DNA of 45,223 nt. Source: a virus. The notes below the pieces were generated by a model. That model did not search any database, was not told the origin of the DNA, and saw only the letters and a list, made by a program, of their open reading frames with translations. The DNA lies in the IMG/VR virus record IMGVR_UViG_3300025120_009907, positions 1 to 45,223 of that record, one strand, 5' to 3'. Below, piece after piece: positions 1 through 26,800 of the stretch. How positions within the stretch are numbered: position 1 is the first letter of the stretch; the number at the start of each line of letters is the position of its first letter. A program made the translations under genes and the position numbers.

Positions 1-1118
1 TGTTTTGGTGTGGCAAGAGGTTCCATGTATGCAAGTGCTTCGTCAATGAGTGTGTGTAGCAGTTCTTTAGGCAGTGCTAGTGGACTTAGGATCTCATCAT
101 TGCTGAAAGTAAACATGACTTTCGTCAATATTTCTGTGTCCAACTCTCTGCTTAAATCAAACATGTTTTTAAGTTCTAATAAACCAGGCATTGTTATTGT
201 GTAATCTAATCTCATCTCTCTGGTTGTCTTTGCAACTGCCATTCCTTCTTTGAAGTTGCGTAACCACTGTTCATAGTTTAATCCGTCTCTGACGTACTCT
301 CCAACTTCTCCTGTACCGTCTAGTGATGAACATATCTGCCAGTCCTGGAACTGTGGCAGTAAGTCAAACAGTTTGATCCCTTTGAATGACGTCCTACTTA
401 GATTCGTGTTGTATCTCACATACACTTCTTTTGCGAATCCTAGTTCTATAATCCTCTGCATGGCTTTCCAGTGCATATCCCACATCAGGGGTTCTCCACC
501 GCACCAGTATATTTCTTTTATTGTTTTTGTTTCTACTGCTTCAACAAACTCTTGTACAACCTGTGTGTCTTGGAACTTTATTATTTGTTCTCTTAAAGGT
601 GACGCCATCCATGGAGAGTCTTCTTTATTCCATGATTTGTTCTTTCTAGATTCTGCTTCCCAACTACTACTCAACATGTCGCCACACATTCTACATTTGA
701 AGTTGCATAGGTTATTGAACCTGTAATCAAAACTGATAGTTTGCATTGTGGTTGCACCGGTCTCATCTGTGCTGTCGTATGCTTCATCCACCCTATTATT
801 GAACAACTGATTCCAATATGATCTGTATACATCTGTGTTTAACAGTTTGTGATCACATACTTGACATTCTGACAGTTCCTCACCTGCCATCATACGCAAT
901 CTCACTGATCGCATGTGATCTGAATTCCAGTGTTCTTTCAGTGTCAGTGGTTTGTATTCCTTGGCATCGTTGCCCGTGTCTATGTACTGTTTGAAACTCT
1001 GTGCAGGTTCTCTGGATGCACAACACATACGTCTTTCTGTCTGGGGAGACAGGTACGTGTGCGTCCATGGCGCCATACAGAATGTTTTGTTTCCTTCAGA
1101 TGGTTTAATTCTTTTCAT
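1..1118 (-). CDS. Radical SAM protein with N-terminal twitch-like cysteine module (3' end outside window)
   Basis: The frame is open from the ATG at 1118 to the window edge (372 codons read), so the C-terminus is missing. The start overlaps the end of the upstream gene by 14 bases. The core radical SAM motif CNFKCRMC places C138, C142 and C145, which should bind the [4Fe-4S] cluster that reductively cleaves S-adenosylmethionine. The SAM-binding GGEP follows in YWCGGEPLM. Before the core lie C14 (in FCMAPW), C33, C85 and C88, a spacing shared by the three paralogues in this operon and resembling the auxiliary-cluster ligands of twitch/SPASM domains, here N-terminal. It is most like the gene at 1105-2397. 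Substrate unknown. The family call is firm; the reaction is not inferable from sequence. Confidence 0.88.
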   Translation of the reverse strand, partial: MKRIKPSEGNKTFCMAPWTHTYLSPQTERRMCCASREPAQSFKQYIDTGNDAKEYKPLTLKEHWNSDHMRSVRLRMMAGEELSECQVCDHKLLNTDVYRSYWNQLFNNRVDEAYDSTDETGATTMQTISFDYRFNNLCNFKCRMCGDMLSSSWEAESRKNKSWNKEDSPWMASPLREQIIKFQDTQVVQEFVEAVETKTIKEIYWCGGEPLMWDMHWKAMQRIIELGFAKEVYVRYNTNLSRTSFKGIKLFDLLPQFQDWQICSSLDGTGEVGEYVRDGLNYEQWLRNFKEGMAVAKTTREMRLDYTITMPGLLELKNMFDLSRELDTEILTKVMFTFSNDEILSPLALPKELLHTLIDEALAYMEPLATPK

Positions 1119-2397
1119 ACTGTGCAAATAAATCTTTCCATTCAGGAAACACATCAGTAAAATTTTCATCTCTGATTTTATCGTACTTTCTTGTTTCCCC
1201 AACAAATGTTGGTAAGTGACGACTCATGTCTTTCTTGTTCATCCAGTCTAGTGCAGATTCGAATCCTTTGGATGCTCTTGTTAAGTGATCCTGTGATTTT
1301 AACCATTCTATATGTTCTTTATATTTTGCAGTAACTTTTTCTTTTTCATTCTGAGGTAATAGATCCATACGTTGCCACAGAGGATATTGCAGTAGGTTAA
1401 AATTGAAATCTTGAGGTTTAATGAATCCTTTTTCTACCCAACTCTTATGGAAGTCTAAAACGTGTAAGCAATTCGATAATCCAACTGTTGCACTAATATA
1501 AAAATCCACTTGTGGACATACTGCTAACATACGTTTCCTATTGGCCACTGTTTCTTCCCATACAGTGCCTTTACGCATAAGTTCTGCTCTTGGTCCTTCT
1601 GCGTCCAAACTTGCACCGATCGAAACGGAATCAAACTTGTTCCATAATTCAAATATGTCTGTGCCTTTGAATGTAGACTTACTGAAATTTGTGTTGTAGA
1701 TCAATCTCACATGGTACATTTTACGTTTGTCTAATTCTTTTAAAATACGTAAATGCTCTTCCATGATTATTGGTTCACCGCCTGCAAAGTAAAACTGTTC
1801 CACATGATCAAACTGTTTCAACAACTGATCCCATATGTCGTTACTATTCCTACCTGCTTTCATTATCTTTGCGTGGTTAGGCGGAGCACCTGTAAGTTTT
1901 TTATGGTCCTCATACCAGTTCGAACTGAACCAAGTACCACAACTCCTGCAAGCCATGTTGCATAAGTTTGAGAAACGTATATCCCAATACTTTATCATGA
2001 AGTCTGCTGTGCCGTCTGGTTTGGTGTTCTCTGTCATGCTAATGTTGTGTCCAAAGTGTTTGTTTGAACTTAGACGCAGTGAGAAGAAACCTGAATCTTC
2101 TTGGTCATAGCATTTGATACATTCCCTAGATTTCTTATTGGCTAACATGTTCAAACGCATCTGTTTCATCTTGTCGCCGTTGAACACTTCTTCCATTGAT
2201 TGTTCGTTTACATTGCCAACGTGCAATTTGTCAAAGGCAAAACAACAAGGATATGCCCTGCCATCTGGAAATGCGTGTAGGTGCATCCATGGCAACATGC
2301 AGAACGTTTCACTCTCAATCAACAACTCCTTTTCCCTAGGAGTCATGTCTTTAATTTTTAGTTTCTCGGGCTCTTTCGCCCCATACTCATATGCCAC
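1105..2397 (-). CDS. Radical SAM protein with N-terminal SPASM/twitch-like module
   Basis: 430 residues. The start is a GTG at 2397, preceded by a TAGGAG-type ribosome site about 9 bases upstream and overlapping the previous gene's stop. The N-terminal part has C33 (FCMLPW), C51/C52 (AYPCC), then GNVNEQSMEEVF and C93-x2-C96, which follows the usual SPASM pattern. The radical SAM core follows: C146, C150, C153 (CNMACRSC) and AGGEP at about 205-209. SPASM modules normally follow the core, so this is the N-twitch arrangement that I recall from phage radical SAM proteins. These enzymes often modify peptides, but cofactor or sugar substrates are equally possible. No precursor peptide is recognisable beside it. 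Confidence 0.9.
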   Translation of the reverse strand: MAYEYGAKEPEKLKIKDMTPREKELLIESETFCMLPWMHLHAFPDGRAYPCCFAFDKLHVGNVNEQSMEEVFNGDKMKQMRLNMLANKKSRECIKCYDQEDSGFFSLRLSSNKHFGHNISMTENTKPDGTADFMIKYWDIRFSNLCNMACRSCGTWFSSNWYEDHKKLTGAPPNHAKIMKAGRNSNDIWDQLLKQFDHVEQFYFAGGEPIIMEEHLRILKELDKRKMYHVRLIYNTNFSKSTFKGTDIFELWNKFDSVSIGASLDAEGPRAELMRKGTVWEETVANRKRMLAVCPQVDFYISATVGLSNCLHVLDFHKSWVEKGFIKPQDFNFNLLQYPLWQRMDLLPQNEKEKVTAKYKEHIEWLKSQDHLTRASKGFESALDWMNKKDMSRHLPTFVGETRKYDKIRDENFTDVFPEWKDLFAQYEKN

Positions 2398-3730
2398 GGT
2401 ACCATTCTCCTATTATTGGGAAAGTCTTTTCAAAGTCCTTTCCGGAACGTTTGTCGTATTGACTGTAAAATGCTTTAAAGTCTTTCTGTAGTTTACTCTG
2501 TTCGGCCGCCCCTGCGTGTGGGGTCTTCACAACATCTAGGTAGTCGATTAGTCTCTGTGTTTGATTAATCTCCATGTGTTCTAAATGCTGTTCATTACTA
2601 TTTAAAAACTTTACCAAGTCCCCTTTAAATTTATTTCTCAGGTCGTCCGGTAGTACAAGCGGTGATTGGAAGCTCGGGAACCTCAATATGTTCAATGTGA
2701 AGTTGACCTCCGGACCATACACTTTACTTGCACTCTTGAACCATACCATTCTTTCCAACAGTTGCGGTAGTGACTCCAAACACAGTGCATTTATGGTACA
2801 CATGTTATGGATCGCACGTGGAACTTTGTCCACCATCATGTGTAAGAAATTTGAGAACCATTCGCCATAATCTAATCCATCCCTGATGTATTCTGCTTGT
2901 CCAAATGTTGCTTCACAACTAGTGTACAATTCAAAGTTATCAAACTTCTTTAATTTTGTTTTGAATCTATCGATAATGCTCTGCTTTGCACCTAGGTTAG
3001 AATTAATTGCAAGGGTCATATTAGGATTCATTTTGTCACCTTGTGTTTCTATCCAATCCAACAGTCTCCACAGGTTTGGACTCATCATGGGTTCCCCGCC
3101 TGTTATTCTTAACTCATCCAGGCTCTTGTGTAGGTCTGTTTCCCACCATTTATAAAATGCTTCCACGTATGGATTTGTCTCATCCTTCTTGTACGGCTCT
3201 GCACTTTCATGACTGTGGGTGAAGTGATTACGTCCATCTGTTGCCATTCCTACGTATGGTCCTTGCCTCTTGATATTGTTTGCCCAAGTGGAACTGAACG
3301 CAGGATTACAATATGTACAAGCAAAATTACAGGTCCTATCAAATGCTATTTCTAATGTTTTAAGATTTACATCTGTGTCAGCATCAGTTTTGTGTGCATA
3401 ATCTAATGCTTCGTTTGTAAATATTTTTGATTTGTATACCCTATCACTGATGTTATCTCTATTGATATCTTCTATCTTCCAGCAGTACTCACAACCTTTT
3501 GGTCTGTCTCCACACTGCATCTGCTTACGTTCTGCTTTCTTCTGTACTGTGTTGTGTATTGCACTTGGATTTGTTTTTATTGCTTCTAGATCAATCTTGT
3601 GCGGAAGTGGATGGTGACAACTTGTGGTCATGCCACTGCCCAACCATATAGTTGCGTTGTACCACTTGGCTCCGCAGAAACTTGCACTTTTTGGATCTAG
3701 TATTTGTTTCTTATATTCAAGATCGTCCAT
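2387..3730 (-). CDS. Radical SAM protein, second subtype, N-terminal cysteine module
   Basis: 447 residues; the ATG lies 14 bases inside the end of the preceding SGNH gene, with AAAGGA just upstream. Radical SAM core: C134, C138, C141 (CNFACTYC) and GGEP at 211-214. N-terminal ligand set: C19 (FCGAKW), C38 (SCHHP), C80 and C83 (GCEYCWK). It pairs closely with the gene at 4450-5820: both share the order FC/MC-x-AKW, SC-x-HP, NP-x-A-x-HNT, RP-x-GC-x-YCWK-x-ED, then the core and a GGEPMM motif. The pair therefore looks like one duplicated subtype and the two left-hand genes another. The reaction is unknown. Overlapping junctions imply translation coupled with its neighbours. Confidence 0.9.
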   Translation of the reverse strand: MDDLEYKKQILDPKSASFCGAKWYNATIWLGSGMTTSCHHPLPHKIDLEAIKTNPSAIHNTVQKKAERKQMQCGDRPKGCEYCWKIEDINRDNISDRVYKSKIFTNEALDYAHKTDADTDVNLKTLEIAFDRTCNFACTYCNPAFSSTWANNIKRQGPYVGMATDGRNHFTHSHESAEPYKKDETNPYVEAFYKWWETDLHKSLDELRITGGEPMMSPNLWRLLDWIETQGDKMNPNMTLAINSNLGAKQSIIDRFKTKLKKFDNFELYTSCEATFGQAEYIRDGLDYGEWFSNFLHMMVDKVPRAIHNMCTINALCLESLPQLLERMVWFKSASKVYGPEVNFTLNILRFPSFQSPLVLPDDLRNKFKGDLVKFLNSNEQHLEHMEINQTQRLIDYLDVVKTPHAGAAEQSKLQKDFKAFYSQYDKRSGKDFEKTFPIIGEWYRGI

Positions 3731-4457
3731 CTTTTCCTTTAAAGTAATTTTTTAATTTGTTGTATTCGTCTTCTGGACAAAGTATGTCACTCTTAAACAT
3801 CATGTCCTTAACCCAGTGGTAGTGTGCTATAGGCGGTGGATGAGATTCTCCTGGGATATAATATTGTTTATAGTTATCTTCAGCAAACTCCCACAGGCCT
3901 TGCCTATCTTTGTAGAACAAGAACTTGGCCCAATCGATTGTGTTGTACAATGCACGTTCACCCTCACTGTAAAATTCATCACGTAAGACATCCTTGTTGA
4001 ATACCATCATAGTATATGGTATTTCCTTTTTGTCTAACAACAACTGTGTCCTTAGAATGTGTTCTAATGTCCTGTAATATTGATGTTCTTCATCCCAGAA
4101 GTGTCTCCTGTAATATTCGTGTTTATCCTTTTCAGGGTGTCCACCATACCATGTGCTCCATTGAAAACTTTCGTCCCATACATGATATGTCTGACGTCCT
4201 TTGAGTTCATCTGCTTCCCTATCTTTTGTGATCACTTCGTACCTGTCTGTGCCTGACCACATGATGTACATGTGATATATCTGTGTGTGTTTCATGGCAC
4301 TGTTTATCGCCGCACGTGATATAGTCTCATTCCCTGATCCTGACCTGCCTTTATTCAACATTGTTATACCACTATCAAACCAAGGCACAAATTTGGGCCA
4401 GCATGGCCAGCCGTATCGAGTGAAACTACAACCGTGTGCTATTGTTTTGTTATGCAT
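3717..4457 (-). CDS. SGNH/GDSL-type hydrolase-like protein
   Basis: 246 residues from the ATG at 4457. A longer frame exists, but the residues before this Met are out-of-frame sequence of the upstream radical SAM gene, and ATG-to-TAA overlap is the rule in this operon. The N-terminus IAHGCSFTRYGWP resembles SGNH block I, with Ser as the candidate nucleophile. NKGRSGSGNETI resembles the Gly and Asn oxyanion blocks. Near the C-terminus ESHPPPIAHYHW resembles the catalytic DxxH block (often seen as DSHP...H), with Glu in place of the first Asp. Such enzymes remove acyl groups from sugars or lipids, or transfer them. Placed between radical SAM and glycosyltransferase genes, a role in glycan acylation or deacylation is a fair guess. 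The fold call is moderate; the substrate is unknown. Confidence 0.6.
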   Translation of the reverse strand: MHNKTIAHGCSFTRYGWPCWPKFVPWFDSGITMLNKGRSGSGNETISRAAINSAMKHTQIYHMYIMWSGTDRYEVITKDREADELKGRQTYHVWDESFQWSTWYGGHPEKDKHEYYRRHFWDEEHQYYRTLEHILRTQLLLDKKEIPYTMMVFNKDVLRDEFYSEGERALYNTIDWAKFLFYKDRQGLWEFAEDNYKQYYIPGESHPPPIAHYHWVKDMMFKSDILCPEDEYNKLKNYFKGKDGRS

Positions 4458-5820
4458 TCCTACACTCCTCCCAGAACTCTTCCATCTCAGGAAAGGTGTT
4501 AAGGAACCTTGTGAGACGTCTGCGATCGTGTTCGTTAAAAAATGCGTAAAAGTCTTTTTTATGTTGCGTACTTGCGTCCGCATTTTCTCGCCAGTATGCG
4601 AGATTACGTTGCATCTTCTGGATCTCGAAGTCCTTGAATATGTGTAGGCCGTTTGCCTCACCGGAATTGTCCTGCATGTACTTGATGTTGTCCTCGTGTA
4701 TGCTCTGGTACGCTTCTGGTAGCATTGTTATCTGTTGCCATGCGGGTTGTCTCAACAGTGGCACGTCGAACCACACCCTCTGGTACGTCTTGCTGTGCTT
4801 GGTACGTAGTTCCAGTATCTTGGACAACAGTTTGTCCATGCTTGTAATACTGAGATTGTTGTAGGTGCATATGAAGGTTATTGAGTTACGTCCTGGTATA
4901 CGCTCCAGGAACTCCTCCACGTTGTCCATCATGTAGTCGAAATCCAATCCATTACGTATGTACTCCGCACGTTTACCGAATGCGTCCACACTTACGAACT
5001 GCATCATGTGTTCCACCTTCTCCTGCATACATATCTCCTGTGCCATGTTGAAGTACTTCTCTTTCAGTTTCTTGTCTGGTGGACACATATTGCTTGTGAC
5101 GTTGAGATGTAGGTCCTGTTTGGGATGGTCAATTATGTACTGGAACACCTTGTAAGTGTTGACATCCATCATGGGTTCTCCACCGGTCATACGGAAGTGC
5201 TTTAAGTTCTTGTACAGAGTTGGCCACCATTTCCAGAAAGCAGTCACATATGGGTTCTCCTCCCTGTTGGGTATGGGCTTACGTGTGCCCTGGAAGTGTT
5301 CGGGGGCATTGTGTGGGGTCGCCGTGGGATATGCTCCATACCTATCCGTTTCTTTACCCCAGGCCGTGGAGAACTGTGGCGAACAGTAACTACACTTGAA
5401 GTTACAAGCGTTGTTGAAGTTTACCTCTACGTACCTGGGGGTCCAACTTGTGGTCATTGGATTCTGTCTAATCTGCTCGAAGTCTTGCATGGCCCATGGC
5501 TCACCGGACCTGTAGTGCCTGTCTGACATCTCTCCGGTGTCCTCTAGTTTCCAGCAGTATGAACATCCATCCGGACGTTCGCCTTTGAGCATCTGTGATC
5601 TCTGTTCCAGTTTCTCTGCTGTGTTGTGCAGTGCGGCGGGGTTTTTCTTCACTGCCTCTGCGTCCATCTTGTGAAGTGGTGGATGGTAGCATGAATTAGT
5701 GAGTCCTGTGGGCAGGTGCAATGACGTTTGGTTCCACTTGGCCAGGCACATTGTGGAAGACACCTCCAACAGTTTATCTTTTGCCTTCAGGGCATCTGAT
5801 TTGTAATCACTAGTACTCAC
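4450..5820 (-). CDS. Radical SAM protein, second subtype (paralogue of the gene at 2387-3730)
   Basis: 456 residues from a GTG at 5820. This start is chosen over an upstream ATG at 5898 because AAAGGAG lies 9 bases before the GTG, the GTG only slightly overlaps the upstream stop, and homology to the paralogue begins here. Ligands counted from the GTG: N-terminal set C25 (MCLAKW), C44 (SCYHPP), C86 and C89 (GCSYCWK); radical SAM core C139, C143, C146 (CNFKCSYC); then MTGGEPMM. The C-terminal third is alpha/beta-like with no motif I recognise. Substrate unknown. Confidence 0.9.
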   Translation of the reverse strand: MSTSDYKSDALKAKDKLLEVSSTMCLAKWNQTSLHLPTGLTNSCYHPPLHKMDAEAVKKNPAALHNTAEKLEQRSQMLKGERPDGCSYCWKLEDTGEMSDRHYRSGEPWAMQDFEQIRQNPMTTSWTPRYVEVNFNNACNFKCSYCSPQFSTAWGKETDRYGAYPTATPHNAPEHFQGTRKPIPNREENPYVTAFWKWWPTLYKNLKHFRMTGGEPMMDVNTYKVFQYIIDHPKQDLHLNVTSNMCPPDKKLKEKYFNMAQEICMQEKVEHMMQFVSVDAFGKRAEYIRNGLDFDYMMDNVEEFLERIPGRNSITFICTYNNLSITSMDKLLSKILELRTKHSKTYQRVWFDVPLLRQPAWQQITMLPEAYQSIHEDNIKYMQDNSGEANGLHIFKDFEIQKMQRNLAYWRENADASTQHKKDFYAFFNEHDRRRLTRFLNTFPEMEEFWEECRNA

Positions 5821-9835: not shown

Positions 9836-11482
9836 TTATTTCACTCCTATCACGCACTCTGTGAGTGCTGTTTCTTTGTTGTATTTATCCTTGATCAGTC
9901 TTCCCAGGGTATTAAAAGCGGTACATTCCTCTAGTTCTGCCACCCGGGCCTCACCATTTCCTGCTGATACCACACGATCCCCTGCCTTGCCTGAACCCGT
10001 CAATTTAACCATAACACGTCCCTTCAATGCCACCATAGGGTGTGAGTCGTTGTTGCCCGCCTGTGCGTTCATGAGGAACGCTGGTGATTCTGATATCACG
10101 CCAAAAACGGCGTCTGACAGCTCGTCCTTGCACTTGGTTATCTCTGCATGTCCACCTAAAATCACTACATCTCCTACCTCTGTTTCGCAGTCCGCTTCAT
10201 ATCTCTCTGCCAAGTCAGCATACATGGCACTTGTTGTTGTCGCATGTACCACGTTGGCCCTGATGTCCACAAGTGTTGGTGCTTCCAATTCAGAATCCGT
10301 CTGTGCAGATTTGAACGCTGTCCAGGCGCCTCCTGCATTTCCGTATGTTGTAGATCCGTCATCCGCGAATGTCTCGTCCCATACCCAGTACAGGTTCTGT
10401 TCTGTCGCACTCGACGTTTCTCCCCTGTTGACTTTCAGTCCAGTGTAGTTGGGCATACCCACGTTGCTGGATACGTTCCTGTTTAGTTCTATGATGTTGT
10501 CTTCTATAGTAAGTGTTGATGTGTTTACTGTTGTCTGTGTTCCATCGACTGTTAAATTTCCCTTAACCCTGATATCTCCCACTGTCGGTAGTTGTAGTAA
10601 TCCTGATGACCCGTCCATGGTCATCATAGTGGTCGTTATTCCGCCATCATTGACTGTGAATATAATGTCCTTGTCTTGTGTTGTCTGTGCAATGGTTAAG
10701 TCGTCACTACTCAATGTCATGGTAACGTCCTGCCCCGCTCCCAACACTAGTCCTGTGTCGCTCTGTATTATCAGTTTACCTGTTGTAGTGTCGTCGCCAT
10801 CTGATCTCAGGAAGTTGGCCGCGGCCACTCCGCCCAGTGCGTCTGCATCTGTGGCTGTTCCCCTGAACTTGGCTGATGACACACTTGTTGAAAGTTGTAG
10901 ACCCTGTGCCACAGTGGAGAAACCTGCCGTGATCAATGCGGCACCCAGTGTTTCTGTTGAACTCGGTGTGAATGCCAGGTTAGAGATAACACCTACTACC
11001 GTATCATTGGTAACCAGTTTCAGGATACTTCTCGTCACGCCTGTGTTGTCTTCCGGTGATTCCGTAATGACCTGTGTAACTCCTGATCCAGACACTGTTG
11101 TTGGACCGATCAGTGTCCATGCTGATCCTGTGTAGACATAAAGTTGTGTGTTTGTCGTGTCGAACCATGTATCTCCAGTAACTGCATTTGCAGGTGCGGT
11201 TGCTGAATTTGTTGGTCCGCCGGCTGGCTTGAATTTTACTCCATCATAAACGTTTAATCTTTTATTTGTTTGGTCAAACCATAGTTGACCTTGTATCTTA
11301 TTTGATGGTGCTGTGGTGTTGTTGAAATTCTCTAGGAGTTTGACTAGGTTCTCGTTTAACTTCTCACCGAAACCTGCATAACCTTTTCCTATCAGTGTCA
11401 GGTCAGTGGTTGCGACATCAATTGTGCCGTCTGCCAGTGTGACCAATAAGGTCCCGAATGTGTTGTTAATCTTGTATGCCAT
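9836..11482 (-). CDS. Tail fibre-like protein, paralogue 1
   Basis: 548 residues. The N-terminal module reads MAYKINNTFGT, DLTLIGKGYAGFGEKLNEN, LLENFNN-x-TAP, GQLWFD and VYTGSAW, and is shared with the genes at 14256-15629 and 15640-17148. The middle has DADALGGVAAANFLRSD, an ATQ/DKDIIFTVNDGG-type segment and MTMDGSSG, also shared. The C-terminal domain starts YADLAERYEAD and contains VGDVVILGG, VISESPAFLMN and ALKGRVMVKL. It also occurs in the 15640-17148 gene and resembles a domain at the ends of cyanophage fibre proteins. It is probably a trimeric fibre or fibre-connector subunit involved in host contact. Confidence 0.68.
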   Translation of the reverse strand: MAYKINNTFGTLLVTLADGTIDVATTDLTLIGKGYAGFGEKLNENLVKLLENFNNTTAPSNKIQGQLWFDQTNKRLNVYDGVKFKPAGGPTNSATAPANAVTGDTWFDTTNTQLYVYTGSAWTLIGPTTVSGSGVTQVITESPEDNTGVTRSILKLVTNDTVVGVISNLAFTPSSTETLGAALITAGFSTVAQGLQLSTSVSSAKFRGTATDADALGGVAAANFLRSDGDDTTTGKLIIQSDTGLVLGAGQDVTMTLSSDDLTIAQTTQDKDIIFTVNDGGITTTMMTMDGSSGLLQLPTVGDIRVKGNLTVDGTQTTVNTSTLTIEDNIIELNRNVSSNVGMPNYTGLKVNRGETSSATEQNLYWVWDETFADDGSTTYGNAGGAWTAFKSAQTDSELEAPTLVDIRANVVHATTTSAMYADLAERYEADCETEVGDVVILGGHAEITKCKDELSDAVFGVISESPAFLMNAQAGNNDSHPMVALKGRVMVKLTGSGKAGDRVVSAGNGEARVAELEECTAFNTLGRLIKDKYNKETALTECVIGVK

Positions 11483-12172: not shown

Positions 12173-14251
12173 TTATTCTTTACCGGTAAAGTCAACTATT
12201 TGCTTGTCTACCAAGCCAATGCTGTTCTGAGCGTGTTCTCTCCACTGCCCAAAGTATTTTTCGCCTAATGTTTCAAGTCCTTGTTGCTCAAAACCATCAA
12301 AGTAGTCTGTGAACAATGTGTCTTTGATCAGTATTCTTCTGTTCTCTGTTCCAAATACATAAACTTTTACTTCTTCATCACCTAATGACTTACTGTGTTT
12401 AGTATCTCTGACTCTCATCCAAGCACCATCTTCTTTCACCATGTGTGAGCCTGAAACTTTGATACCTTTGTAATCATATAAATCGTCGGTTAAAAATTTA
12501 CCAGTTCCAAACACAAGTCCGCCCACTGCAACTTCATCTCCTAGATCAACTTGCTCTACTGGTTTAATAGTTCCATCGGCCATTGTTATTGGCGTGCCTG
12601 CTAAGAAACATTTGTTGTGAACAACATAGTTGTCAGCAATATATGATTTGTCATTTGAAATGTGGAAGTTGTATAAAGGCAACTCAGGATCATTTATTTC
12701 TTTTGATTTAATATCTGTAATCTCAAACAATCCATCGCCTGTGATAATCTTGTCTCCAACTTCTAATGCACCTTTTAATTCTTCATAAAGTTCTACACCA
12801 TCACGTTCTTTTGTTTTCTCTGGTTTGACTGATTTCCAACCTTCTGTAGTCATAAACGGGTGTTCTGATGTAAAGAAATAATGTTCACTGTCATTGAATG
12901 TGTATAACTTCCTATCGCCCAAAAGCACCCAATCTAATTTTATTACCGTGTTATTTCCGTTGTAGCCTCTTACTTCCTCGCCGACCACGACATCTTCAAT
13001 ATTTTTAAGTGTACCATCGGCCATTGAGATTTTAGTACCTGCAACAAAACAACTAGTTCCCCCTCCTATGGGTGCTCCATATTTAGATGTGGCCACTGAT
13101 GCGTTACTGTATCCACTCGCCGTGTGCGGGTTGTGTCTCTGTGGTTGTTTTGGCGCTGGTGCGACAAATCCACGTCCGCCGCCATCACCGCCACCTGACT
13201 GTGGTGGAATGTTCGCGATGGTTGGAATACCTCCCGAGCCTTCCGTGCCCGATGTGGCTCCTCCTATTGCGTTTCCGAACTGTGCTGAATTTCCATTGAA
13301 CAGGATGTCACTAGAGAATATTGATTTCCATACTCCTCCTACCTTCACGAAACCTGAGTTTATTTGTTTCCATGTGTCTGACACTTTAACAAGAATAGAA
13401 TTAAAAGATTTCCATTCTCCGCCTACCTTGTACTTGCTATCCGATGGTACATTAAATATTAATACGGCCCTTCCTGCACCTCCGGCCGCACTGCCTCTAC
13501 CACCTTTGGCTATACCTGATGAATAGTGGGCACTACCTGTGCCTCCTGGGTCTAGACCTGCACCATTGTCCTCTGATCCTCCTGAGGGTACCAAATTTGA
13601 TCCTGATTTTCCACCGAATCCTCCTGCGTCACCCGTAGCACCTGATCCTCCTGTGCCTCCGTCGGCTCCGCCACCTCCAGCGCCACCGCCACCACCGTCT
13701 CCGACGTGACCTGCACCGTTCTCTCCCAGTGTGCCTGGTGAATTTGATGTTGCTGTGTTTGTGTTGATTCCTATTCCACCACGTGATGAGGCACCTGTTC
13801 CGCCACCGCCGCCACCGCCGCCTGCAATGGCTAATTTAATTGTGTCCGCGGCCTCGCCATTTTCGAATAACGTTACTGTGGTCGCTCCACCACCTCCACC
13901 ACCAGAACCTGATGATCCGACCGGTCCTGAACTTCCGCCCTGACCGCCTGAATAACCTGTCAAACTTTTTCCGTTTCTACCGCCGTCGGTCTCTCCACCT
14001 GATCCTCCTGCTTCTGCACCACCACCGACCGCAACACCAATTAACTTGACTCCTGCGTATGCTGATATATCTAAATCTGTTACAGTGACATAGTGTCCAG
14101 CGGCACCGTCTGCGACACTCCCTTGGGAATCCATTCCTCCAGGTCCGCCTGCTCCGCCCCATAAGTGCATGGTTATGGTAGTAGTACCCGATGGTAACTC
14201 TGCTATTTGAAATTGACCTGTGTAATTGAAAGTCTTTGTAATTAATGGCAT
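12173..14251 (-). CDS. Glycine-rich adhesin-like tail protein with two C-terminal Hint (intein-like) domains
   Basis: 692 residues; AGGGAGG precedes the ATG by 9 bases. Residues 1-270 begin with a beta segment (KTFNYTGQFQIAELPSG), followed by long glycine runs typical of phage adhesins. Residues 274-311 hold three short repeats, KVGGEWK, KVSDTWK and KVGGVWK. From 401 there is a Hint domain: C401 in CFVAGTKISMADGT, H464 in TSEHPF, and H545-N546 at the end of NYVVHNK. A second starts at once: C548 in CFLAGTPITMADGT, with H603 in SGSHMV. The residue after HN is Lys, not Cys, Ser or Thr, so normal protein splicing is unlikely; cleavage or ligation chemistry is possible. The Hint part is more AT-rich than the glycine part. 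Confidence 0.8.
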   Translation of the reverse strand: MPLITKTFNYTGQFQIAELPSGTTTITMHLWGGAGGPGGMDSQGSVADGAAGHYVTVTDLDISAYAGVKLIGVAVGGGAEAGGSGGETDGGRNGKSLTGYSGGQGGSSGPVGSSGSGGGGGGATTVTLFENGEAADTIKLAIAGGGGGGGGTGASSRGGIGINTNTATSNSPGTLGENGAGHVGDGGGGGAGGGGADGGTGGSGATGDAGGFGGKSGSNLVPSGGSEDNGAGLDPGGTGSAHYSSGIAKGGRGSAAGGAGRAVLIFNVPSDSKYKVGGEWKSFNSILVKVSDTWKQINSGFVKVGGVWKSIFSSDILFNGNSAQFGNAIGGATSGTEGSGGIPTIANIPPQSGGGDGGGRGFVAPAPKQPQRHNPHTASGYSNASVATSKYGAPIGGGTSCFVAGTKISMADGTLKNIEDVVVGEEVRGYNGNNTVIKLDWVLLGDRKLYTFNDSEHYFFTSEHPFMTTEGWKSVKPEKTKERDGVELYEELKGALEVGDKIITGDGLFEITDIKSKEINDPELPLYNFHISNDKSYIADNYVVHNKCFLAGTPITMADGTIKPVEQVDLGDEVAVGGLVFGTGKFLTDDLYDYKGIKVSGSHMVKEDGAWMRVRDTKHSKSLGDEEVKVYVFGTENRRILIKDTLFTDYFDGFEQQGLETLGEKYFGQWREHAQNSIGLVDKQIVDFTGKE
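12287..12610 (-). other. Hint-like domain 2 (residues 548 to about 655)
   Basis: The start repeats block A of domain 1 (CFLAGTPITMADGT, then LGDEV). A His in GIKVSGSHMVKEDG and WMRVRD corresponds to block B. No terminal His-Asn is seen, so it can at most perform the N-terminal acyl shift. The end is approximate. Confidence 0.6.
12614..13051 (-). other. Hint domain 1 (residues 401-546)
   Basis: A mini-intein-sized module of 146 residues without room for a homing endonuclease. It has block A (CFVAGTKISMADG), block B (TSEHPF followed by GWKSVKP), a LEVGDKI segment and the terminal block ending VVHN. Catalytic Cys, His and the terminal His-Asn are all present. The following residue is Lys, as in bacterial intein-like domains rather than splicing inteins. 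Confidence 0.75.
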
Positions 14252-15636: not shown

Positions 15637-15644
15637 TATTTATA
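15637..15644 (-). promoter_or_regulatory. Exact TATAAATA, doubtful late promoter
   Basis: The motif is perfect, but it contains the TAA stop of the upstream gene and sits only 8 bases before the ATG at 15629, so any transcript would be almost leaderless. Coincidence is at least as likely as function. Confidence 0.22.
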
Positions 15645-17148
15645 GTCTTCCAGCCACAATATTAATCGTGCCTATTTCGGTTGAATTGTACTCCTCTAAT
15701 GCTTTTCCTATCACTGTGCCCATCTTTGGATCATTTCCTTTTCTAGCCACACCCGGGTGTTGTGAGTGTGTTACCAGCATATCTCCCTTGCTTATCTGCC
15801 CCATCACTTTGCATGGTACCTTACCTTGTAATGCTACCGCTTGTCCTGTTGCGTCTGAATTCATTAGGTATGCTGGATTTTCAGAGATGACACCTGCCAC
15901 TCTTGGATCTGCACCCATGCTTGAAACTGTGATCTCTTTATCACCACCAAATATGACAACTGTGCCCACTTCGTACTCCGAGTCGGACTCGTATATCTCA
16001 GCCAAGTCAGCGTACTGCGCCGATGTTGCTTTTGCGTATACAGTGTTGTATTTCTTTAGCTCTGTTCCTATGTCGTATGTTGTATTTGTGTCTGGTGCTA
16101 TTGCCTTCGAAGTTAGTGTACCACCCATCACCAATGTGCCCATTGTGTTGGCACCTGAACTTGTTAGATTACCTGTGACGTTTCCTGTCACTGCGCCTGT
16201 CAGTGGTCCTGCGAATGCTGTTGCTGTTGCTGTACCCGAAACCTGTAGTTTCGTACTTGGTGTGGTCGTCCCTATACCAACCCTCGATTCTGAACCATCT
16301 ATGGTCATAACTGTGGACGTCGATCCACCATCGTTTACTTTGAAAGTTATGTCTGTGTTGTTCGTTGTGTTTGATATTATACCACCTGAAGCATCAACCG
16401 TTATGGCTAGATCACTGTCTACCCCAACAACAAGTCCGGCATCGTTAGCAATACTGATGTGTCCTGATGTCGTGTCATTGGCATTGGATCTCAGATAGTT
16501 TGCCGCCGCTACTCCGCCCAGTGCATCTGCATCTGAGGCCGTGCCTTGGAATTTTATGTCTGCTATTGCAGTTGTCAGTGTAATACCTTTCTTGACAGTT
16601 GCGAATCCGGTCAATGTAGTCTTGGGTGTGAATGTATCCTCTGATATGATTGCTATAAGATTTCCATCGTTAAACAATTTTGTGATGTTCTGACTGTTGT
16701 CTCCTGAGTCAAGTATCGTGTCGAAGGTAAATCCGTTCGTGGTACCTGTGGAACTAGGTGGACCTACCAATATGCTTTGTGTACCGTTGTAGAAGTACAT
16801 CTGTCCTGTATCTGAATCTATCCATATGTCTCCAGAAGCCAAGTTTGATGGAGCAGAAGATTGATAAGGTGCACTACCACCTGCTGTTTGGAATGCAGTT
16901 CCGTTGTACACTTGTAATTTTTGACTTGTGCTGTCCCACCATAATTGTCCCTCTATGGGTTTTAGAGGTGCGGATGTGTTTGAAAAGTTTTCAAGTATGT
17001 GTAAGAAATTCTCTGCTATGGATTCACCATACCCTGCATAGCCTTTGCCAATTAAACTTAGATCGGTCTGTGTGTTGACTACACCATCCTGTACCGTGTA
17101 CTGGTTAGGTGAACTAGAATTATTGCTCTTGTTTACCGTATATGCCAT
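15640..17148 (-). CDS. Tail fibre-like protein, paralogue 3
   Basis: 502 residues. The ATG overlaps the upstream stop (TAATG). It shares DLSLIGKGYAGYGESIAEN, LENFSNTSAPLKP, GQLWWD and the DADALGGVAAANYLRSN block with the gene at 9836. The C-terminal YADLAEIYESDSEYEVG domain, with VVIFGGDKE, VISENPAYLMN and ALQGKVPCKV, is also common to both. It is likely a fibre subunit; the common ends and divergent middles suggest parts swapped within one family. Confidence 0.67.
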   Translation of the reverse strand: MAYTVNKSNNSSSPNQYTVQDGVVNTQTDLSLIGKGYAGYGESIAENFLHILENFSNTSAPLKPIEGQLWWDSTSQKLQVYNGTAFQTAGGSAPYQSSAPSNLASGDIWIDSDTGQMYFYNGTQSILVGPPSSTGTTNGFTFDTILDSGDNSQNITKLFNDGNLIAIISEDTFTPKTTLTGFATVKKGITLTTAIADIKFQGTASDADALGGVAAANYLRSNANDTTSGHISIANDAGLVVGVDSDLAITVDASGGIISNTTNNTDITFKVNDGGSTSTVMTIDGSESRVGIGTTTPSTKLQVSGTATATAFAGPLTGAVTGNVTGNLTSSGANTMGTLVMGGTLTSKAIAPDTNTTYDIGTELKKYNTVYAKATSAQYADLAEIYESDSEYEVGTVVIFGGDKEITVSSMGADPRVAGVISENPAYLMNSDATGQAVALQGKVPCKVMGQISKGDMLVTHSQHPGVARKGNDPKMGTVIGKALEEYNSTEIGTINIVAGRL

Positions 17149-17882: not shown

Positions 17883-20800
17883 TTATTCAGGTGCGTTTGT
17901 AGGCTCGTTAGCAATGAATTTAGCCTGTTGGCTTGTAGAAGCCTGTAATCCTTTACCATCTGCTGGGTTTCCGTCCTTAGCAGTGTACCAAACCTGTCCT
18001 TTCTTGTGTAAGATTTTAACCTGTGTTCCTGATGCTGGAACAGTGCTCAAAGTCACTGCTGTCGTGCTTCCGTCCACAGAATAGTTGATAGTTGATCCAT
18101 CCTCGCTAGTGAGCAACAATCGTTGGCCACCAATGAATATGTCTAACTCACTAGCGGAGGCTGGGGTTTGTGATAGTGCGAATGTAGCCGTGCTACCGTC
18201 ACCTGTGAAGGTGTTGGTGTACACAGTGTCCGCGTAAGGGATGGTTTGAGTACCAGACGCATCTACCACTTCCGTGCCTGATCCATGCCCCTTAATTCCT
18301 GTACCAAGTGTTCCACGTCTTAGTTGTCCCAACGTGTTACTTGATTTTGTAAAGTATTCTATTCTCTCTTTGTCTATGAATATGACCCCTGGAGTATTGC
18401 TTGCCGCGTCCGGTGTTGGCAACACGCTCGCATCTGCCACTGTTATAGTCTGTGTGCCTTCTGTCATATCTATTGTTAATTTTGTAGCCGCATTTTTTGA
18501 AATACGTTTGTAGAACGTCCTGTTCATCATGTCTTTGAAAATCCTGAATCCCGTAGCACCTGTTGCCGTTTCGAGTGCGAAGTACATCACATCTAGTCTG
18601 TCTGAAGAAGTTATCGTCTTTCCTGAAACTGTTATCGTGTTGCCACTTGTCACATAATCAGTACCTTGTATCAACTGCTCTCCGTTCAACCAGACGAAAG
18701 TGTATCCTGCGTGTAACGTATCAAATCTCAATTTGAACACACCACCTGGTCTGCCTTCTAAGACTTCTCTCCGCTGTTTCATTCCAAGTGCGTTGTTGAA
18801 TGTTGTGACTGAAATCTTGTCACTGTTTGATAACGAATAAGGTGAAGTGATCGCACTTGGTACTAACACTATGTCGTTGCCTGCGTTGAAGTACTGATGA
18901 TCTACCAGAGTAGAAATACAAATAACATCAGTGCTTGTGGGAACGGATGCTGTAACAAATTCAATGTTGTTGTTTCCAACATCCACAGTGTAGTGTGTGT
19001 TAAGATCTTTCTTGGTTCCGTTCACATACACTTCTACCTGTGCGGCAGATGTTATCGTTTTCGCTGGGTCTACTGTTGAATCATCTGATAATCCTGATAC
19101 CACACCATAAGTGTATGTACTTCCGTCACCAACGTAGTATGTGTTGTCTGGACCACGTAGCATTCTGCCGTTCACTTCGACAAGTGTCAATCCTGAGAAT
19201 GGTCCAACTGATCCCGCAGGATATGTTAGGGTGTATCTATTTGTTCCAGTTGCATAAGTCAGTTCTTGATTTCTCACACTCGCATAACTCCGTGTTGTTG
19301 TACTTGATGTTTGGAAACCTGCTATCTGTATGTAGGTGTTGTTTGCAGGTGCACTGTTAAACGTCACTGTTATTGTATTATTAGTAGTTGTTGTTGTAAA
19401 ATTAGTTGTAGGCACACCGTCTATTGTGATGTAGATTCCTGAATCAACTGTTGAATCCAAATGAAACTCACCTCTAGTGGATGTCGTGTACACTGTAGTG
19501 CTTCCGTTGCCAGTGAATGTATTCAACACCCTGTAGTTCTCACCTGATATTGCAAATACCTTAGTCGATATTGTACTGTTGTTTGCAGGTGCTGATGTGA
19601 ATGTTATTGTTTTGTTCGCAACACTGATCGAATAGTTCGTTGTCAATTTCTGTACAACCCCATCAACGGATACTGTAACAGATCCTAATGTTCCAGGATA
19701 GTCACCTATGCTGTATGTTGTTGTGCTTCCATTACCCCTGTGATTCATTTCGCTGATGAACGGAACACCTGACTCTGGAGAAGTGTAAACCTTGATGTCT
19801 AATGTGTCGAACATCTGTCCAGGCACAACCTCTTCTGGTGCGTAACTGGTGTCTGGTGAGACGAAATCGTCACCCTCTAACACAATGTCGCTCGGTGCGT
19901 GACCCAGTGCTGAGGTGAACAGGCCACCTTTTACTAAAGAATCTAACGTCCTATCATCTGTTGGTGTAAGCACACCGTCGTCATCGAAAGGAATGAACTC
20001 TACCAATGCGTTGGATTCTGGTGTTTCACTTATAGTGAAAGTTACTGTGGATCCATCTCCCCTGATCACATCTGATAGTTTTTTACGTGTGCTGTCATCC
20101 TGTGTCAGGTAAACCTGGTAAACTTCAGTCGATGCTGGTGCAGTGTCAAACGTGTATGCCGCTGTTGATCCATCGGCCCTGAATGCCTTGACTCTAGATG
20201 CTCCATAGTTGTCCCAAGGGAAGTCATACCAACCTGCTTTATCCCAACCTGCTTCTTGATTGAATAATAATCCTGTGACCATCGTTCCACCGTAGTCCAC
20301 ACCTGTCATCACTTGGTCAAGTTCGTTGCCCGGCATTCCCGAACCTGGTGTGTAGAAACCTTTGGTCCTGTCTGCCGCTGTTAATCCTGTCTCGTTGCCG
20401 TAAACCTTGTAAACTTTACCTATGTTGTCATCGAAATCTGTGCTTGACGTGAATGCGTTTGTGACTTTGTACAGTTGATTGTTGTATCTCAACAAGTCAT
20501 TGTAAGCATATGCCGTTGATGCTTTCCAGTCCACAACACGAGATGTGCTAGACACCCTATCAAATTTAATCGTTGTGTCAAAATCTCTAACAAGGTCGTT
20601 TTTTAAATTTGCGTATGCCTTGGCAGTATCCGTTGGCGTTGATCCGTCCTTCTTACCACCTGATAAAATCACTGTTGGTGTTGCCGTGTAGTTTGCACCT
20701 ATACCTGTCACTGTTATTTTCGTTACTGCACCGTTCTGTATGATTGCCGTGGCTGTGGCCGATGTTGTAGTTGGCGTTATGTACATCTTGAATTCGCTTC

Positions 20801-23800
20801 CTTTGGTACTCTCTGACTCTCTTACTGATGTTGTTGGACCATAGAATGTGCCTGTCAGCCCATCAAAAGTGTATGCCTTGGTTGTTCCTGCTCCTGAATT
20901 CTGTGTGTCGTATATTTCTGCCTGTTTCTCACTTGTAAACAACGGGTAATAGTATCCAAACTGTCCACTTGTGGTTCCTGATGAACTAGTTGCTTGTATC
21001 TGGAATGGACCCGTTGAGCCTGTAGTTCCGCCCAATACTGTCACAGTAGGAGCAACTTCATATCCTGATCCACCTGTTGTCACTATGATTGACTCCACAT
21101 ACTTCTTATGGTAGTCGTACCACATCTGGTGTGGGTACTCTGTCAATTTTGCCGTGTCTAATTCCACATTGAGACTTCTGATCTTGCCTGTCGCGGTATC
21201 ATAGAAAGTTGGATTGTCAAAATCTGAGAATATTCCGTCCTGTGTTTCCGTCTTGTCATACCCTAGTCTGTATTCCCGCAGTTTTGTGTGGAAGGGTTTG
21301 ACCTCATTGATATAACTTTCTATCCAACTGTCTGTACCTGTTGTGTAGGTTTTCCTCTGGTCCAGTTGTCTAACGCTGTTTTTGGCATTTATGAATGATG
21401 TTTTGAACATCCAGTCCACGTATGTCTGTTCTGAAAGTACCTTTCTCAGTCCTGTGAAAAATAATGTGTTGTATTCTCCTGCTAGGTCATTTATGAACAA
21501 TTCATCTCGCAATGCTGTCAACACTTTCCTTGTCTCGATACTTGGCTCTTGATCAAAGAAGTTGTCATCGAACGTGTCCTCACCGGCAAAACCTGTGGCT
21601 TCCTGTGAGTAATCATAAAGTTTTGTGCTTAATCTTATTGTTCCGTTCTCTGTTCCAACGTTTTCCCATCCTGTAGCAGTTTTCATAAACAGTTTCCATC
21701 CACCTGTGTCCGCTGATCTCACTTTAACGTGTTTACCTATGGCAATATCCAAAGTGTCTAATTCATATTGGTATGTAACCTGTTTGTCAATCTTGGTGTT
21801 CTCGTTGTGTACCATGTCTCCGTCTGTCTTGTACCAGTCTGTGTAACTCCAGTATGCAGAGGTGTTATAGGTCTGTAATTTAGTTCTTGACCAAGTAGTG
21901 CCATCCCAGGTGTATATTGCCCAATAGTTGCTGGCTGTTTCATCAGCCTTGACCAGGTAGTTTGTTGTACCTGATATGTCTGCTGTGTTCACATAGGTCA
22001 ATTCCGCATATGTGTCCACAGAAGAGTCCCATTCAAGGCTCTGTGCTGTGGGCTCTGGATCCTTTGAGTCTAGGTTCGATAGGCTGATCTGTCCTACCAA
22101 TTGGTTTTTCTTTAACACCGTGTTGGCGTAGTCTAATATCTCTTTAAGTGCGTTGTACCTGTCCACATACCAACTCTGCCTTGGTCTTATGTTGTTACCA
22201 TATCGTTCGTTCAATGGAAGATCTATATCTGGCACAATGTCTCCTGCAGAATTTTTCCCTATTAAAGAATCCCACCAACGTGTCTCTATCTGGTGTCCGG
22301 GTCTGTATTCTGAATCACCTTCCCTAACCAACTTCCACACGCTGTGGGAGTCACCTTCAAAAGTGTTAGTCCTTGTGTCTATGTTCAACACTATATCGTT
22401 GTTGACTAAATTTTTTACGTTGTTAAGTAAAAATTTGTTTGTGTCTGTGATTGAGTAATACTTGAAGTCAAATGCACTAGGATTCTGTATAAGATTCGCT
22501 ACATAGGCCACTGTGTTCTTTCTTGTTACCAAACTGTTTATAGGCAACGTTGTTTTACCTTTGACCCAATAGTAATAAAAGTTGACAAACTTGTCTAATC
22601 TCGAATCGTACTTCTGTGTCACCGTGTACTGTGAGTCGTCACCGTATAATGCTGTGCCTGAAACTGTACGTCCAATATCTTCCTGCTTATTGTTCCATTC
22701 GCTTGGCAGTAAACTTGATTCTACCCATTCATACACATCTATACTTGAACCCGGGAAGGTCTGTCCCCAGTGATTGTGTTTGTATTCCTGTGTGTCCTGT
22801 TCGTACCATAGCCATTTCACTGTTGAAAGATCCCACCATACCTCACCTATGTGCTTCTCGTCCCAAGATGTTTTTGTATTAGCATTATCACCTACATTGT
22901 AGGTTGCTGGATCCCAGGCTGTCTTTATGTTAATCTCTCTATCTGCCACTCCTAGTATCCTGCCCTTAATAGGATCATACAGATCATAGTAGTCCTGTAA
23001 TTGTTTTGTTTTATTATTAAACTCGAACACCTTGCCTAGTTTATCTGTGTCCATTAGTGCCGTTTCTGTCACCAAGTTCTTCCAAGCGTACTCGCTTTTC
23101 ACTGTGAGATCGTAACAGACAACCGTTCCGTCGTTCACTACCTTGGTACTTCCGTCTGCTCCTGTGTTCCCATCATCATTTGGTGCACCTACGAATACCG
23201 AATTGTCAATCATGTAAACGCCACGGCCAAAGTCATCCTGTTCTGACATATTTTCTGATGTCAATCTGTCATCTATTATAAACTTGGTGTTGTACATTGT
23301 TGCCGTAAATGCGCCTCCCGATTGAGTGTTCGGATCTACTATAATGGTGTCCTGTAGGTCAAATGTTGTTTCCCCAGAATCAAATTTCATCTCCCTTGAA
23401 CTGGCAAAGTTTTCCGCTCCTATCACAAGTCTCGTTCCATTGTCATTGAGGCCTAGACTCGTGCCAAACTTCATGTTGATGCTCGAACTAGGTGCACTTA
23501 TGGTCTGTTGCAGTGTGTAAGTGTTTGTTGAATCATCAGCATTCCATTTGTAGTAATATATGGCTCCTGCATCTGCATTTTCTACACCATCCACACCCGG
23601 TGCACCAATTATCAAAGTAGTGCCATCCTTGCTCATTGCTATTGATTCACCAAAGGCAGTGTTTAGTGATGACCCGTCATTGGCGACACCTGTTATGGTC
23701 TGTGCCAGTGCAAAGGAATTTTGTGTGCTTCCATCATTGCTTTGCGATGTCTTGATGAATATCTCTACCTTGCCTGCGTTGCCAGGTGCCAGTGAACTCA

Positions 23801-26800
23801 CAGCCAGTATGTCACCGTTGTCATTGGCTTGTATCCTATGCCCAAATCTCTGTCCTGAACCACCTGCCGGCGCCTCTATGGTGTAATCTTGCGTCCATGT
23901 GTCATATGTAGAACCGTCTGTACCCACACCCCAAGTGTACATGTAGACCCTGCCTTGATCATTATCGTGTCCCGGTGCTGACACAAACAGATGTTTGTCT
24001 GCTGTTGACCTATTTGAGGATATTCCTGGCTCGGATATTTTATGTGCCCATCCAAAATTAGCGTTCGCATTCAATGTGGATCCATCTGTAGGAGCCTTCA
24101 CTGTGTCCAGTATACCATACTTGAACGTGCTTGGATCCCATATGTAAATTTTAATCAGTCCTGAATCGATAAATCTAGTACTTCCGTCGGCACCCACTGC
24201 ATTTGTGTATGGTGCTCCTGCAACCACGAAGTTTTCATCTGTACTCATTGACAGTGACTCACCTAATCTGCTAGTATTATCATCATTGTCGGTCATGGTT
24301 CCCACAGACTGTGATTGTAAAAGAGTGCCCGCTGTAGACGAGGATCTATATAGGAAGTGTACCTCTCCCTGAGTCTTGCCTGGTGCTGATACTACCACTG
24401 TCCTCCCGTCATTTCTTGCCACTATCCTGTGTCCAAACTCCTGTTCCGCTGTGTTGGCATCTGGAGATAGTACTAATCCAGTGGTGTACGGATCCTGTTT
24501 CTCATACACACGCCACAATCCTGATGTATCGGCATCTGCAAACACTTTGTCACCTGGTTGTTCTATTGTTTCGTTTTTGTCCGTGTAATCATTGTAATTC
24601 AATAAATCATTTACATTGTTCATTGATGCTAATCTTACAGATATAAATTTGTGTATGTTTCCGTAACTGTCGGCCGTTGATCCATCTTCCAGTGCTGGTA
24701 TAAATCCAACGTTGCCTGTGTAGTCTATAACCACTGTCTTGTGGTCTGGGGTTGATGATACCTGATACGCCCCATTCAGTGTTTGCTCCTCACTGTTTGA
24801 TATTCCAAAGTAGTCGGCCTCTGCTGTGGTCGTTGCGGCTGACAGGTTGTGTGAATCTGTAAAAATGATCTCTAACTGTGATGCATCATTTATCAAGTTT
24901 AAGTTTGCTATCTTTATACCAGCATTCGAGATCCTGAAAACGTCCCAGTCTAGATTGCTTTTGTTGGCGACCCAAACTAAATCGTTGGCTGTTATTGCAT
25001 TCATATCGAGATTCAGTATGTCCTCTATGTTTAATGCCGTGTGTTGCACTTGTTGTAGTTGTGGGTATCCTGCCGTCTTGAACACCTGTGCTGTGTCCCT
25101 GCTGACCCCTTCTTTGCTGTAGTCTAATCTCTTGAATGTCGTAGATGCTGTATACTCGACCGGTTTGTAGTGGAAATCGTCTTTGACTATGGCATCTGAT
25201 CTTGAATATTCAACAGTTTCATTTGATGTGTCTAACAGTTCTATACTCTGTGGGTTTGCTATTATCTTTTCATCCTTAAGAACAATCTGTATATTTTCTA
25301 TGGAATCTGTATTACCAAAGTTACCTGTACGTATCATCCATTCCGGGTAAAGGTCAAGACTGATGTCTTCACCCTCATACTTGGCCTTAAGGATCTTGTC
25401 TATGGCGTTCTGTGTGCCTTTCTCTCTGATATATCCTTGGTAGAACTTGTATTGTGAAACATCATTGACGAATAGATTCTCTAGATAGTCTCTTGACTGA
25501 TATCCTGTCAACCTTTGCGCCAGCGTTTGTTGAGATTCATCAAAGTTGTTTGTCTCTAATTCATAAAAATCATTGAACTGTGAAATTTTGTAATCAAAGT
25601 TAGGTATCAATTGTGGTGCTGGTTTTTTGTCTTTGAGTGTCCACCTAGTTGTTTCGAAAGTTGTGCCCGAGTTATGATTTATTTTTGCAACATAGAACTT
25701 GCCTTGATACTCTATACTGTCGCCTATCCTGTAGTCTGTGTTGGCAGACCAGTAAGTAACCTGTGCGGCATCGAACACGAACCCTGGTGCGTAGTAGTCT
25801 CCGTTCCATCCCGCGGTCTTCCAACCAACTAATTTCAATCTCTGTTGTCTGAATCCTGTATACGGATCATATATTATGTCTGCGAATACTGTGCTGTTGT
25901 CGAACAGCAATACATGTTCCTTCTGTACTGTGTTCAGTGCGATGTTATAAAGACCTACTGTGTCGGACTTGATCCCTAACTCAAATGTTTTGCCCATACG
26001 TTTGGTCGATATCTCGTTGATATCTATCTTCCTTCCTCCGGAATCTAACAACGAGTAGTCACCTGCTAGGTTTCTTAATTTGCCAACAATGCTGTTGTTT
26101 GTATCCAACTCAAGGCCATCCGCGGCTGGTGACACAGTGATTGCTGATCCGGGAGTCCATTGTTGTGTAGTCCAGAATAGGAATTCCCTAACTGCGTTTG
26201 ACCAGTTCAGTGTTTCTTTCAATTCATTTGAGAACTTGTTAAATCGGAAACCCTGATCTTCCAGCCAGTGACCGTATCCAAACAAGAAATCAGCCACATC
26301 CTGTATAGTATCAAAGACGTGTCCATAAGGTATAATCTGTGTCGTTTCTTGATATGTAGCATACTGTTCGATCACAGTTGATCCTTCTACAGATATTGCC
26401 TTTGCTGTTGTTGTTTTAGTAGGATAGTTGAAGTTGAAGTACGGTTTCACAGTACTGTAACCTAACACCTTGTATCCACCCAACACTGTTGATCCATCCT
26501 GACTGATGTCTGTGTTCTTCTCTATCAGTACACCCGAGTACTGAAAACTCTCCACAGGATTAGATGTCCTGAATAATATCTTGTAGTTCTCATCCGGTAT
26601 AAATTTTGATCCTGCTGTTGATCCCGGAGACACACTGTCTGTTAGAATTTTTATGTTGTCCTTATCAGTAAATCCTCCCAACTTGTATGCTAACTGCACA
26701 GTAAGGTTCTTCATCTTGTCGTAGTAGAAAATTTTGCTGTCTAGGTTCTGTGAAATCAGATAGTTGACTACGAGCGGTTGGTAGCCTGCTGTTTGGTATC

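Follow-up and report, generated by a model that had tools for sequence, protein, structure and literature searches.

Does a phage tail fibre that ends in two Hint domains, the first followed directly by lysine, process itself once it has been made, and what part would the lysine play? Inteins use Cys, Ser or Thr as the +1 nucleophile, and lysine is non-standard at this position. The fibre is encoded in the 45.2-kb stretch of DNA analysed here (the window), a piece of a marine T4-like phage genome, taken from a virus record, in which PHROGs identify baseplate wedge, tail lysozyme, late sigma factor and gp46-like genes.

The fibre protein

The open reading frame at 12173..14251 on the minus strand encodes a Gly-rich tail-fibre protein of 692 residues that ends in two Hint domains, and tandem orthologues (L001-L006) share this arrangement. 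The N-extein, residues 1-400 (13052..14251, minus strand), is a Gly-rich fibre with a phrog_25859 match at residues 274-314. Glycine makes up 36% of residues 30-270, VKVGGVWK-type repeats occupy residues ~272-312, and the linker before the first Hint domain ends in GGGTS. The N-terminal homology is common to fibres of other architectures, and Pfam and PHROGs place further fibre-like genes around the frame. The label "adhesin", used in the preliminary description of the locus, is inferred from the fibre-like Gly-rich N-terminus and the neighbouring tail genes. We also note that a 4283-residue open reading frame (17883-30734, minus strand) separates the baseplate wedge gene from the fibre genes.

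Hint domain 1

Domain 1 comprises residues 401-546 (12614..13051, minus strand; 146 residues) and is delimited by Pfam, AF2, Foldseek, conservation and dN/dS. The preliminary description had credited it with a full catalytic set, and the residues are located exactly as claimed: Cys401 (13051-13049), His464 (12862-12860) in the block-B motif T461-S-E-H464, and His545-Asn546 (12619-12614), in addition to Asn528. Every residue required for an N-S acyl shift and Asn cyclisation is present. Domain 1 scores above the curated Pfam cut-offs for Hom_end_hint (3e-14) and also Vint, and its match to Pfam Hint is below the cut-off. In the AF2 model of both Hints in tandem (pLDDT 60.8), a shallow alignment left domain 1 poorly modelled; remodelled alone with an alignment of 103 relatives, the domain reached a pLDDT of 93. 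The best PDB match of this model in Foldseek is BIL2 of Tetrahymena BUBL1 (TM 0.77-0.80, E 4e-10), followed by the C. thermocellum BIL and then by inteins and Hedgehog. The sequence profile of the family, searched against the PDB, agrees, with BIL2 as the best match (E 9e-19).

Conservation across the 103 aligned viral and cellular relatives is nearly complete for Cys1 (102/103), Thr461 (99/103) and the block-B His464 (103/103). His-Asn closes the domain in all full-length close relatives, 59/59 viral and 73/73 cellular; in the A7 alignment its count is partly a matter of construction, HN-less sequences having been excluded, which does not apply to the count of the following lysine. Set beside the BIL families, a comparison that the preliminary description had proposed, domain 1 shows the traits of type A: an N-terminal Cys with block-B Thr and His, a C-terminal His-Asn, a +1 residue that is not an obligate Cys, Ser or Thr, and the Hint fold. 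Judged by its residues and predicted fold, it is a type-A-BIL-like Hint.

Other assignments were considered and rejected. Lys547 in place of Cys, Ser or Thr rules out a canonical class 1 intein. Such inteins often carry a homing endonuclease domain; domain 1, at only 146 residues, has none, and no endonuclease family was matched in Pfam. Pretoxin HINT domains of polymorphic toxins release a C-terminal toxin domain, and this identity is ruled out since the C-terminal part is a second Hint and a helix, with no toxin domain. The A7 Hint profile also matches the AXH domain of Ataxin-1/HBP1 (PDB 4j2j, 1oa8, 2m41, 3qve; E 7.5e-7), and Pfam AXH matches 63 of the 103 Hints (best 1.8e-20); from these similarities, AXH may be a Hint relative without the C-terminal block.

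Lysine after the terminal His-Asn

Lys547 (12611..12613, minus strand) is both the +1 residue of domain 1 and the -1 residue of domain 2, and the translation bears out its earlier identification. Scans of IMG/VR and GTDB genomes yielded a few hundred loci; the GTDB scan and a later viral scan used queries that stopped at His-Asn and thus did not select the +1 residue. Lysine directly follows His-Asn in 59/59 close viral domains, in 70/73 cellular domains and in 100/103 aligned relatives, in which the +2 position is highly variable. It is found in 34/42 strong and 9/22 weak matches of the widest viral scan, and in 0/7 weak cellular Hints; these samples overlap and are not independent. The 73 cellular domains come from Gammaproteobacteria, Alphaproteobacteria, CPR bacteria, Bdellovibrionales, Bacteroidales and archaea. 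The earlier expectation that domain 1 should cleave or ligate rather than splice fits the definition of a type A BIL (PMC4031507) and is strengthened by the relatives. On these counts Lys+1 is a hallmark of the domain 1 family and no loss or defect in the window copy.

The flanks bear on what the lysine does. Thirteen relatives terminate exactly at His-Asn-Lys, 19 terminate 0-3 residues past His-Asn, and other Hints of the family sit at the extreme N-terminus (MC/C...), where an N-extein is almost absent. Because HNK is kept even where one flank is almost missing, the lysine appears to be part of the reaction itself, and these flank-poor proteins are the strongest sign of its participation. 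The 13 relatives that end at HNK also argue that joining two exteins is not the general purpose of the family.

The family is widespread and apparently undescribed. No close relative of domain 1 was found among the 50,697 phage records searched, neither Pfam nor NCBIfam holds a dedicated model, and the literature searched does not describe it; the primary papers on the C-type BIL (PMID 19153786) and BIL2 (PMID 33444728) lie outside that literature, and a prior mention is possible.

Several settings of HNK Hints may be recorded here. Bdellovibrionales proteins (L191, L197, L217, L227, L243) have prepilin-like N-termini (GFSLV...) and end in the Hint, possibly as a pilin tip. Secreted proteins (L179, L188, L201, L220, L232 and similar) consist of a signal peptide, the Hint, HNK and Gly/Asp-rich repeats, and several secreted HNK proteins have a common C-terminal motif like EEAxAIxxGW. 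Many phage proteins (L105, L106, L114, L128, L133-L142 and L150) have in common a C-terminal module starting K[IV][IV]CT, which lies downstream of HNK-Gly linkers. The single-cell genome of Flavobacterium sp. SCGC AAA160-P02 includes a phage contig that encodes an HNK Hint (L114/L173), which may point to a host. In SR1 (CPR) Hints (L205/L256, L263, L265, L266), in-frame TGA codons are read through, which fits reassigned TGA.

Hint domain 2 and the C-terminal extension

Domain 2, residues 548-650 (12302..12610, minus strand), is identified by BLASTP, hhalign, AF2 and its relatives. As the preliminary description stated, it starts two residues after Asn546, at Cys548 (12610-12608), and lacks a terminal His-Asn; it contains S600-G-S-H603 and ends in FTDYF (D649-Y650), with FTDY replacing His-Asn. 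The equivalence of FTDY to block G rests on ungapped reading and AF2 strand order. A C-terminal extension, residues 651-692 (12176..12301, minus strand), is conserved together with domain 2 and predicted as a long helix in the AF2 secondary structure. The span of 12287-13051 given earlier for the Hint pair was therefore too short at one end, since domain 2 and its helix reach residue 692 (12176); the pair itself is real.

Homology to domain 1 is evident in BLASTP (63% over 27 residues, E 9e-10) and in hhalign (98.5% probability over 72 columns), with blocks A and B common to both; hhalign covers the first 72 columns only, and direct alignment of the two domains is unreliable past block B. In the tandem AF2 model, the Hint region of domain 2 has a pLDDT mostly of 80-93. 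Cys548, His603 and the FTDYF ending are invariant in the domain 2 family, in which His-Asn never occurs. In 43 non-redundant relatives on marine viral contigs, this domain stands by itself at the C-terminal end of a Gly-rich fibre. A recent tandem duplication of domain 1 is thereby ruled out, domain 2 being a distinct family, and no DNA-level repeat was found between the two domains. With Cys1, a block B in which Ser600 stands for Thr, and no block G, domain 2 resembles a type B BIL, for which only an N-terminal thioester would be possible. The Pfam Hint_2 match is weak and below the cut-off (E 0.02).

Radical SAM clusters of 4 to 13 genes are present in phage contigs with domain 2 fibres (window 249-5424, minus strand; L001, L004, L005, L007, L016, L021, L066, L068), and contigs with domain 1 only (L114, L142, L119, L121) have 0-1 such genes. 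This co-occurrence may be a clade effect. In Achromobacter phage 2-1 (L254), a radical SAM gene likewise lies two genes past the Hint fibre.

Modularity and selection

Domain 1 behaves as a removable cassette, because orthologous fibres have either domain 2 only or domain 1 with another tail. The L071 fibre, 61.5% identical over residues 1-382, has domain 2 without domain 1, and the L142 fibre, 59% over 1-327, has domain 1 and a different tail; both domains are present in L001-L006. Purifying selection acts on both Hint domains of the window, and domain 1 is the best conserved part of the fibre (dN/dS 0.08-0.16). Its dS is lower than that of its flanks, 0.74 vs 1.84 and 1.51 against L003 and 0.68 vs 2.18 and 1.41 against L004, which suggests that domain 1 has been exchanged as a unit.

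The tail protein VrlC of other marine phages carries one to four Hints directly before a conserved DPLAQTF motif, with linkers that are a few residues long or consist of one Lys or Arg. When the joined flanks of one VrlC Hint protein were used as query, 676 cultured-phage records spanned the junction without a Hint. Head-to-tail arrays of three or four Hints, one to few residues apart, are also seen in the viral proteins L316, L347, L343, L351, L357 and L361.

Proposed processing and alternatives

The anatomy, fold prediction, conservation, selection and modular presence or absence set out above are the observations on which a mechanism can be built. They suggest that the fibre may cut or re-join itself once made. 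Active-site conservation alone is no proof of turnover, and we infer all chemical steps and any benefit to the phage. We lean, by a modest preponderance of confidence, towards post-translational processing of the fibre by domain 1, as a type-A-BIL-like Hint whose catalytic residues are intact, with domain 2 as a type-B-like Hint. Taking the analysis as a whole, domain 1 would cleave, and probably excise, itself; the likeliest course appears to be that the fibre processes itself and that domain 1 is excised, partly or fully.

The reaction would begin with an N-S acyl shift at Ser400-Cys401, helped by Thr461 and His464. Asn546 would then cyclise with the help of His545, freeing Lys547 and domain 2, and an amine of Lys547, for which both alpha and epsilon are considered, would attack the Cys401 thioester, linking the fibre to domain 2 again as domain 1 departs; some fraction of the fibre may be cleaved only. 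Domain 2 could form a thioester at Lys547-Cys548 that leads to cleavage or to transfer to an outside nucleophile, without self-excision, and afterwards it would either remain attached to the fibre or remove itself by cutting at Cys548.

In type A BILs, the free amine of the C-terminal fragment is reported to attack the N-terminal thioester, with splicing as the result, and the yield is mainly cleavage products (PMC4031507). The latter favours a reading in which domain 1 only cuts, at 400/401 and/or 546/547, and the C-terminal Hint part is shed during maturation, in the manner of an intramolecular chaperone or removable cap. The C-termini of adjacent fibre frames resemble autoproteolytic fibre chaperones, with a weak Peptidase_G2 match in 9836-11482 and phrog_22593/19602 in 9836-11482 and 15640-17148, and the 19 relatives that stop at or just past His-Asn point the same way. 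Cleavage alone, however, leaves the near-invariant Lys+1 unexplained and would split the conserved VrlC in two, and we regard it as possible at best. BIL2 is reported by the providers of its structure to form an isopeptide bond via a Lys epsilon amine, its N-flank being conjugated to different substrates (PMC8616854); because of this report and because Lys+1 is the family hallmark, excision with joining is taken to be as likely as plain cleavage.

A bolder and equally tentative proposal is that HNK domains form a separate mechanistic Hint class, in which the side chain of the +1 lysine would accept the N-segment of the Cys1 thioester in an isopeptide bond, after which cyclisation of Asn would release the Hint, providing phages, secreted bacterial proteins and pilin tips with a built-in, ATP-free isopeptide ligase. 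Use of the epsilon amine by the +1 residue would be new relative to the BIL and intein literature surveyed.

Covalent capture is improbable. Here the thioester of domain 1 or 2 would react with an amine or hydroxyl group on the host surface or on a different virion protein, and the fibre would be fixed covalently. In its favour, relatives form the C-terminal ends of tail fibres and of Bdellovibrionales prepilin-like proteins, the N-flank of BIL2 is reportedly joined to lysines of varied substrates (PMC8616854), and domain 2, for which Asn cyclisation is impossible, retains Cys1 and S-x-x-H; but the sequence points to no acceptor, and the earlier suggestion of attachment to a virion protein or host, or of tip release, is speculation. 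It is similarly doubtful that the Hints are inactive modules retained for folding or spacing: the fold is a compact beta domain usable as a cap and half the catalytic set is missing from domain 2, but Cys1, His464, His-Asn and Lys do not change among sequences that are 33-48% identical overall and differ at other positions.

If domain 1 is active, it would belong to an intein-like family through which phage fibres and bacterial surface proteins process themselves, with Lys in place of Cys, Ser or Thr. The intein toolbox would gain a new chemistry, with amide instead of ester intermediates, and certain phage fibres would not be colinear with their genes.

Comparison with known systems

The Hog domain of Hedgehog has a sterol-recognition region and transfers an ester to sterol; it resembles domain 1 in fold only (1at0, TM about 0.6). 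The C-type BIL of Bdellovibrio is described as associated with a PPS-1 domain (PMC9185962). The fibres of the cultured Achromobacter phages 2-1 and JWF and a protein of Providencia phage PSTNGR1 likewise have a Hint at the C-terminus, with AG or SS where His-Asn has been lost; they are only distantly related (30-48%) and, unlike the window fibre, have a single Hint and no Lys+1 domain. Domain 2 shares Cys1 and block B with type B BILs, together with the lack of block G by which type B is defined (PMC4031507), and has the weak Hint_2 match given above; it differs in its own FTDYF and helix ending and in Ser for the block-B Thr.

Type A BILs, represented by the Clostridium thermocellum BIL (PDB 2LWY; TM 0.70-0.78 to domain 1), also have an N-terminal Cys, a C-terminal His-Asn and no Cys, Ser or Thr at +1, and they occur in variable surface proteins; the near-invariant Lys+1, in contrast, is not among the type A traits given by the reviews surveyed. 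BIL2 of the Tetrahymena BUBL1 polyubiquitin locus (PDB 6Y75/6TMM) differs from the window system in being eukaryotic, in lying between ubiquitin-like domains rather than in a phage fibre, and in having no second Hint after it. Its acceptor is described just as a Lys of ubl5. BIL2 is nevertheless the best profile and fold match to domain 1, and it is likewise a Hint between two independent domains, with a reported Lys isopeptide product (PMC8616854).
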